37,143 nt of DNA from Candidatus Binatota bacterium (GTDB taxonomy: Bacteria; Desulfobacterota; Binatia; UBA1149), in assembly GCA_012960245.1 (NCBI GenBank), contig DUBO01000009.1, positions 1 through 37,143 on the forward strand. Reading direction: 5' to 3'. The notes beneath the pieces were generated by a model, which had not been told where the DNA came from, did no database searches, and saw only the letters and a program-made list of their open reading frames with translations. The translations under genes were made by a program, and so were the position numbers. Of the stretch, positions 35,864 to 37,143 are shown one piece after another (within the stretch, counting starts at the first letter, position 1; the number at the start of each line of letters is the position of its first letter).

Positions 35864-37143
35864 CTAGGGCATGGTCGTGCTGGTAGTCGAGGTGGTGCTG
35901 CCCGGCGCAGCCTGCTCGGCCGCGGCGCCGACTATCCTGGACGGGCAATCCAGAATCACCTGCTGATTGACCACCAGCTGCATCACCATGAGCGCGTCAA
36001 GCGCGGTCACGCCGCCATTGCCGTTAAGGTCGCACAGGTGCAACGGGCACTCGACAGACCTGCCCACGGCGTAGGCAAGGATAACCGGAGCATCGGCTAT
36101 GCCCACCGAACCACTGCCGTCCGAGTCACCGCAGGGCAGCGAGCAAGTCGGGTACGAACAGAAGTCGCCGTTCACCTGGTTACCGTCGTCGCACTCCTCG
36201 CCCAGGTGGCCCTCCGGCTCACGCTCGCCGTTGCCGCAGCAGTCATCCACGTAGGATGCAGGATGACAATCACCTTCGTAGCAGGTTTCGCCGGTGGTAC
36301 AGCTGTTATCGTCGTTGCAAACAAGCGAGTTGTAGCTATGCATGCAGCCCGAATAAGGCTCATCGCTCATGCAGTAGTCGGTGGTGCACAGGTTGCCATC
36401 ATCGCAACTGACAACATCGGTCACACACCCACCTGACTCACAGCGTTCGTTCTCGGTGCACACGTCGTCATCGCTGCAATGGCGGGTGGTGTCGAACGTG
36501 TTGACGCAGCCGGTGTCACCAGTAGAAGCCGAATCGCAGGTGTCAGTCGTGCAGTCGTTCTTGTCGTCGCAGTCCTGGGCCGACGTGTCCGTACCCACGC
36601 AGGTACCCATACCGTTGCACTGATCGCCCGTCGTACAGGCGTCGCCGTCATCGCAGCCGGCAGTGTTGTACTGATCGACGGCGCATCCTGACTCCGTACA
36701 TATGTCGTCGGTGCAAGGGTTATCGTCGTTGCAGTAGTCGCCTGTGTAGTCATGCAAGCACTTGCCAGTCGTCGGGTCGCAAGTATCAACTGAACATTCG
36801 GCTTCATCGCTACCGCTACACGAAACGTCCATGCCCCCACTGACGCATTTCCCCGCCTCGCAATGATCCAGCAAAGTGCAGAGATCGTTGTCGAATTCGC
36901 AGCTATCGGTATTGTATGTGTACTTGCAGCCCTCGGCAGCATCGCAAGTGTAGTCGGTGCAAACATCGCCGTCGTCGCAGTTCAGAGAATCAACGTGCTC
37001 GCAGATACCCGCAGAGCACTCCGTTATGGTGCACTCGTTATCGTCGTCGCAGTCAGTGTCGTCTGCTACAAAGCCGTTGTCGGTGCATGCGCCCGCGCCG
37101 TCGCAGGTATCCTGCACCACGCACTCGCTACCAGCGTCGCCGC
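35864..37143 (-). CDS. Repetitive cysteine-rich, dockerin-like protein (N-terminal part beyond window)
   Basis: The visible C-terminal ~425 residues have no start in the window. They contain about ten repeats of a Cys/Asp-rich unit roughly 35-50 residues apart, with the core C-D-D-G-x-x-C-T-x-x-x-C (for example CDDGDVCTDYTC, CNDDNPCTDDIC, CDDGNLCTTDYC). Next is a DUF4215-like module (CCGNGEREP...EECDDGNQVNGDFC), known from myxobacterial cysteine-rich repeats. Two EF-hand-like dockerin repeats follow (DSDGSGSVGIADA and DLNGNGGVTALDA). A short Ala-rich linker and a tail STTSTTSTTMP end it. Many disulfides and calcium sites suggest an extracellular or outer-surface protein. No enzymatic domain is visible and I assign no function. 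It is the only clearly accessory gene here. Confidence 0.85.
   Translation of the reverse strand, partial: GDAGSECVVQDTCDGAGACTDNGFVADDTDCDDDNECTITECSAGICEHVDSLNCDDGDVCTDYTCDAAEGCKYTYNTDSCEFDNDLCTLLDHCEAGKCVSGGMDVSCSGSDEAECSVDTCDPTTGKCLHDYTGDYCNDDNPCTDDICTESGCAVDQYNTAGCDDGDACTTGDQCNGMGTCVGTDTSAQDCDDKNDCTTDTCDSASTGDTGCVNTFDTTRHCSDDDVCTENERCESGGCVTDVVSCDDGNLCTTDYCMSDEPYSGCMHSYNSLVCNDDNSCTTGETCYEGDCHPASYVDDCCGNGEREPEGHLGEECDDGNQVNGDFCSYPTCSLPCGDSDGSGSVGIADAPVILAYAVGRSVECPLHLCDLNGNGGVTALDALMVMQLVVNQQVILDCPSRIVGAAAEQAAPGSTTSTTSTTMP

Follow-up and report, generated by a model that had tools for sequence, protein, structure and literature searches.

The locus and its modular protein

We analyzed a window of 37,143 nucleotides, meaning the whole stretch of DNA at its full length, from a genome of order UBA1149 that is assembled into 60 contigs totaling 2.82 Mb (G000). 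The window ends where its contig, C9, ends, and an open reading frame (ORF) runs off there with its N terminus missing. This ORF adjoins a tRNA-Leu gene, and its neighbors were read by eye as trigger factor, ClpP and ClpX. The features of the encoded protein are collected in Table 1.

Table 1. Features of the contig-end ORF in the window
Feature	Position	Strand	Basis or remark
ORF, 425 aa plus stop, 5′ end open at contig end	35864-37141	minus	
CTDC (Cys/Asp/Thr) repeat array, residues 1-296, 9 clear plus 1-2 degenerate units	36254-37141	minus	
DUF4215-like module, residues 302-335	36137-36238	minus	own profile; Pfam DUF4215 not reported
Four-Cys type I dockerin, residues 337-401 (Cys 337, 365, 370, 399)	35939-36133	minus	
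Calcium loop 1, residues 339-350, D-S-D-G-S-G-S-V-G-I-A-D	36092-36127	minus	sequence and dockerin alignments
Calcium loop 2, residues 371-382, D-L-N-G-N-G-G-V-T-A-L-D	35996-36031	minus	sequence and dockerin alignments
Ala/Thr/Ser-rich C-terminal tail, ending STTSTTSTTMP	35867-35932	minus	sequence

The readable protein contains 52 cysteines. We counted nine instances of C-x-[DF]-x-[DN]-x(0-2)-C-[TI], against a mean of 0.08 and at most 2 in 2000 shuffled versions of the protein; a truncated first unit and a degenerate one at about residues 108-128, both recognized by eye, bring the array to 10-11 repeats, in agreement with the ten counted in the sequence-only reading. The array shares its Cys/Asp/Thr pattern with Dicty_CTDC (PF00526), which matched it weakly at 22.8 bits, under the cut-off of 27; a relative in genome G001, 88% identical over 166 aa and likewise lacking its N terminus at a contig end, reached 36.1 bits with the same model. 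The module behind the repeats also misses its Pfam cut-off: DUF4215 (PF13948) was not reported for the whole ORF at E≤1, and a search of the C-terminal 148 aa at E≤10, in which the HMMER filters discard most very weak matches, did not report it either. Our own DUF4215-like profile, built from 26 modules that precede dockerins in sister genomes, matched residues 302-335 with 19.8 bits and a bias of 8.8, so the earlier claim of a DUF4215-like module holds for this profile and not for the Pfam model. Such a module lies within the 60 residues ahead of 26 of the 97 sister dockerin domains described below, and at least 82 DUF4215 matches occur in the window's genome (150 of 204 candidates scored). 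The descriptions of both Pfam models give no function. The fold prediction proposed in the sequence-only reading was run with AlphaFold on residues 131-296, and the mean pLDDT was 48.2; therefore, no fold is claimed for the repeat. A catalytic domain, which the same reading had suggested looking for, was not visible in the readable 425 aa with Pfam or NCBIfam (the latter gave no match to the ORF), and an enzymatic role for these 425 aa was accordingly set aside.

Some sister proteins carry a tail similar to that of the window protein after the dockerin domain. Behind the dockerin at loci L204, L232, L247, L260, L278 and L226, as well as in the window, lie tails or linkers rich in Thr and Ser, for example STTTTTTTTTTTLP, which are perhaps glycosylated.

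The locus differs within the genus. In genome G002, the site beside tRNA-Leu and trigger factor is occupied by a different CTDC/DUF4215/dockerin protein with 1619 readable residues, and after it (L049, contig C77, 4822-5106) we recognized by eye an internally deleted remnant of the 3′ end of the window gene. Since no more than this remnant of the gene lies at the G002 locus, the window protein is dispensable there, and not every species of the genus needs it. Contig ends truncate seven dockerin ORFs in the window's genome (on C9, C24, C25, C46, C47, C53 and C60), at least four of them inside CTDC or DUF4215 repeats; such repeats seem to be where assembly fails in this genus.

A four-cysteine dockerin and its order-wide family

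The sequence-only reading had proposed a two-loop, dockerin-like pair at the C terminus, and this assignment was borne out. Pfam Dockerin_1 (PF00404) matched the ORF with 26.7 bits (cut-off 22.9), and both calcium loops follow D-x-[DN]-x-[SN]-x(6)-D, with the ligands D1, D/N3, D/N/S5 and D12 present in both halves (D339, D341, S343 and D350; D371, N373, N375 and D382). When a profile of 18 dockerin domains of the genus (A1; two of the 18 belong to the type 2 described below) was compared with PDB sequences, solved dockerins ranked first, with 4uyq at 33.8 bits and 18 distinct sequences at E≤0.1. Residues 292-425 were modeled with AlphaFold from 10 sequences; the model had a pLDDT of about 90-95 over the dockerin core, was poor ahead of the core and only fair at the tail, and gave a mean pLDDT of 67.2 and a pTM of 0.50 as a whole. 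The first 29 Foldseek rows for this model were all dockerin entries (best E 0.0038, probability 1.00; none at E≤0.001), and structural re-alignment of the candidates gave a best Z of 9.8 over 62 residues at 2.3 Å for the Acetivibrio cellulolyticus ScaB dockerin 4uyq; a middling Z of this kind may reflect a common arrangement, and here the sequence and Foldseek results agree with it. We regard the identification of the C-terminal module as a dockerin, by sequence and predicted fold, as secure.

C-terminal placement is usual for dockerins. The window dockerin shares this placement with cellulosomal type I dockerins (PF00404; nearest solved structures 4uyq and 4uyp from A. cellulolyticus ScaB), along with the fold, the two Ca2+ loops and the duplicated halves. 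Unlike them, it has four conserved cysteines, a variant that it shares with a large family across the order. Matches to A1 were found in 13 of 13 genomes of order UBA1149. The three genomes of the genus hold 19 (the window's genome), 12 (G001) and 20 (G002) copies, counting the rows that built A1. The ten other genomes of the order hold 22-136 copies each, the counts for G020, G201 and G207 being lower bounds taken from 150 candidates each. Across a sample of 198 genomes of the phylum, A1 matched in 15: three belong to the order, and the other twelve lie outside the class and score no more than 48 bits, with 1-17 matches apiece. The four class neighbors outside the order (G058, G094, G123 and G151) gave no match, 31 of 42 candidates being scored for G058 and G094. 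Scanning named genomes with A2, a five-row subset of A1, confirmed 9 of 23 candidate stretches.

We fetched 80 regions from the ten sister genomes, which yielded 90 stop-to-stop ORFs with 97 domains. The regions were picked from the best-scoring matches listed, and frames longer than about 1000 aa were omitted; this sample is therefore biased toward typical copies on ordinary proteins. The four cysteines are kept in 96, 96, 97 and 96 of the 97 domains, D1 of the two loops in 91 and 94, and D12 in 96 and 97. Among the 83 closed ORFs, the dockerin lies within 25 aa of the stop in 69, near the start in 8 and internally in 6, and a crude rule assigns a signal-like start to 66 (shuffle mean 17.2). 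Two dockerin copies are present in 7 of the 90 ORFs. Pfam was run on 88 of them, two shorter than 150 aa being dropped, and reported Dockerin_1 at E≤0.001 for 48, which places the family at the edge of the Pfam model. The passengers, for which 25 of 49 families were listed, include DUF4215 (23 ORFs), CTDC (4), disintegrin (3), PD40 propellers (3), FG-GAP (2), subtilase (2) and endonuclease/phosphatase (2). Pectate_lyase22 was present in 2 members, as were several propeller models. No glycoside hydrolase family, the kind of plant-wall enzyme that carries dockerins in cellulosomes, was among the 25 listed.

Cohesins and the two dockerin subtypes

The genome search for cohesins that the sequence-only reading had called for returned four cohesin-like domains in three giant CTDC ORFs of the window's genome, which we found by tracing relatives and with a local profile. 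A direct Pfam Cohesin (PF00963) search of that genome at E≤0.001 gave one match, below the cut-off. For three of the four domains, Pfam Cohesin is the sole family found, at 18.1-21.8 bits (cut-off 24.1), and the fourth matched no Pfam family at E≤0.1. A profile built from the four domains (A3) detected no additional domain in the window's genome, five in G002 (one cut), and none in G001 (86% complete) or the ten other genomes of the order. Cohesins are thus recognizable in 2 of 13 genomes of the order, both among the three of the genus, by profiles that might overlook diverged cohesins in the sister families. Pfam Cohesin at E≤1 exceeded its cut-off in 0 of the 13 genomes; outside the genus it gave only two matches in the order (E 0.5 and 0.6), and an E. 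coli control also produced matches at that level.

We compared a profile of eight genus domains with one of 17 stretches that exceed the PF00963 cut-off in other genomes sampled from the phylum (four near-copies from G058 and two from the near relatives G098 and G126; L116, L121, L122, L124 and the other listed cohesin matches were outside this comparison). The probability was 95.8 and the score 56.1, against at most 14.0 for column-shuffled copies. Against PDB sequences, the genus profile had no more than four hits (E 0.51-0.88), too weak to be informative; two carry the name scaffoldin, and the best is a dehydrogenase. The view that the genus domains are cohesins, as judged from sequence, draws on the profile comparison and on the sub-threshold Pfam scores of three of the four domains in the window's genome.

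Other proteins with such modules were also seen. A cluster of giant Cys-rich ORFs lies at L082 and L053 (contig C51 of the window's genome, about 36000-75000), and two of these ORFs have cohesin-like domains, one in the order cohesin-dockerin-cohesin. At L081 (contig C32, 6213-10541), one ORF combines a metallopeptidase-like HExxHGLGF motif, seen by eye, with DUF4215/CTDC repeats and a cohesin-like domain. By eye, a 2535-aa cohesin protein (L053, 5276-12880) and a 923-aa CTDC protein (L064, 4279-7047) have a similar C-terminal domain. In the same class but another order, G058 has seven cohesin matches on contigs C1 and C2, five of them over the cut-off, and no four-Cys dockerin detected by A1.

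The dockerins of the genus fall into two subtypes. Type 2 is longer, about 73 aa, and is carried by an endonuclease/phosphatase protein, an SdiA-regulated-like protein, a 554-aa protein and the 2535-aa protein, where it lies between two cohesins; the window dockerin belongs to type 1, the order-wide subtype. With a single-domain query, type 2 at 88 bits or more was confined to the genus (four in G000, one in G001 and three in G002), and the next best match across the 13 genomes scored 36.9 bits. As type 2 is restricted to the genus just as the cohesins are, the two may be partners; since the genus is a single clade, this shared restriction perhaps reflects one evolutionary event. G001 has a type 2 dockerin, and no cohesin was found in this 86% complete genome. 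With its own subtype in 13 of 13 genomes and recognizable cohesins in the genus alone, a cohesin partner for the window protein is doubtful.

The contact positions also bear on this question. According to PMC4728124, a Ser-Thr pair in each half of Clostridium thermocellum dockerins touches the cohesin and a clasp joins head and tail. The pair is a specificity feature of these dockerins rather than of the whole family. At the equivalent loop positions 10-11, as aligned with clostridial dockerins, the window protein has Ile-Ala and Ala-Leu in place of Ser-Thr, whereas the order-wide family mostly has A-[ST]: [AS]-[ST] is present in both halves of 51 of the 97 sister domains, in one half of 40 and in neither of 6. 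The window dockerin has neither the Ser-Thr pair nor the [AS]-[ST] that 91 of 97 sisters show in at least one half, so its binding may be weak, of another kind or absent.

A putative docking tag and its proposed receptor

After analyzing these data, we propose that the window protein is an extracellular, secreted rod with a terminal, Ca2+-dependent and probably disulfide-clasped docking tag whose receptor lies outside the cell, a reading to which we give a probability of about one half. The protein would be exported, and its Cys/Asp-rich CTDC repeats would form a disulfide-bonded spacer, perhaps loaded with Ca2+. The dockerin module would bind two Ca2+ ions. Cys337 lies just ahead of loop 1 and Cys399 behind the last helix, a placement suited to a covalent clasp; a Cys337-Cys399 disulfide probably holds the head and tail of the dockerin together, as a covalent version of the head-to-tail clasp of clostridial dockerins, and a second one, Cys365-Cys370, may sit between the loops. 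The tag would then fasten the rod to its receptor. That receptor is more probably an unrecognized cohesin or an unrelated surface protein than one of the genus cohesins, which more probably pair with the genus-only type 2 dockerins. Against the tag reading, the conserved loops and cysteines would suit a purely structural Ca2+ module too.

Such a module is the core of one alternative, in which the domain is a partnerless end cap, stabilized by Ca2+ and disulfides, that protects the ends of secreted proteins and is a dockerin in fold only. The abundance of the domain across an order without recognizable cohesins, the strongest conservation at Ca2+ loops, cysteines and hydrophobic positions, and the adjacent modules, often Cys-rich as well, all fit a cap. 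However, a cap has no need of the preference for [AS]-[ST] at positions 10-11, and unrelated passengers carry the same tag; we consider this account rather unlikely. It is also rather unlikely, in our view, that the window dockerin takes part in a classical cohesin-dockerin assembly by docking onto the giant, scaffoldin-like CTDC proteins of its own genome. The four cohesin-like domains in three giant ORFs, their Pfam scores and profile comparison, and the protein with a dockerin between two cohesins, a combination also known from adaptor proteins elsewhere, speak for such an assembly. Yet the ten genomes without a recognizable cohesin have at least 22-136 dockerin matches each, G001 has 12 and no detected cohesin, the restriction shared with the cohesins belongs to type 2 and not to type 1, and the recognition positions of the window dockerin lack Ser-Thr.

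Alternatively, a dedicated secretion or anchoring system might recognize the domain as a C-terminal signal for export or sorting, which would explain why it so often lies close to the stop and reaches at least 136 copies in a genome. We consider this highly improbable, given the domains near the start or internal in 14 of the 83 closed ORFs, the ORFs with two copies, and the dockerin being a folded module, unlike short sorting tails. Returning to the docking tag, the uncharacterized surface assembly suggested by the sequence-only reading stands in part: with cohesin-like domains and 19 dockerin matches in one genome, an extracellular assembly is plausible and the dockerin is real, but a cohesin partner for this order-wide subtype is doubtful.

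We also entertain, more tentatively, a wider version in which an order-wide docking code has parted from cohesins: a dozen to more than 100 mostly, probably, secreted proteins per genome would carry a disulfide-clasped dockerin whose receptor is unrelated to cohesins or diverged from them, and one genus would have kept cohesins together with type 2. Within order UBA1149, which the accessible text of PMC8262859 places in Binatota (UBP10), cohesins are unrecognizable in 11 of 13 genomes, in contrast to cellulosomal systems. The words dockerin and cohesin are absent from the main text of that paper, our search for literature on Binatota and dockerins found none, a search on dockerins with "absence of cohesin" retrieved, in the records available, nothing but a rumen gene catalogue, and the accessible text of a survey of cellulosome bacteria (PMC11557425) contains no word starting with "Binat". 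The closest parallels are the non-cellulosomal systems described in the accessible texts on the planctosome of freshwater Planctomycetes (PMC6461901) and on Ca. Stygibacter (PMC8542988), which, as here, have dockerins on secreted peptidases and other proteins as well as large cohesin proteins; the planctosome also has a protein with both domains, as in the window's genus. In both, however, cohesins accompany the dockerins, unlike in the ten sister genomes of UBA1149, and those texts make no mention of a four-Cys variant.

The fold of the window dockerin is ordinary; its cysteines, the numbers of its family and its unrecognizable partner are unusual. Dockerins with no identified partner are an open question in non-cellulosomal genomes. 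If the disulfide clasp is real, such a dockerin could serve as a sturdy and practical tag in protein assembly. Moreover, since the tag is very abundant and uniform, with strong matches confined to a single order in the genomes that we searched, a comparison of a few genomes could be enough to look for its receptor.
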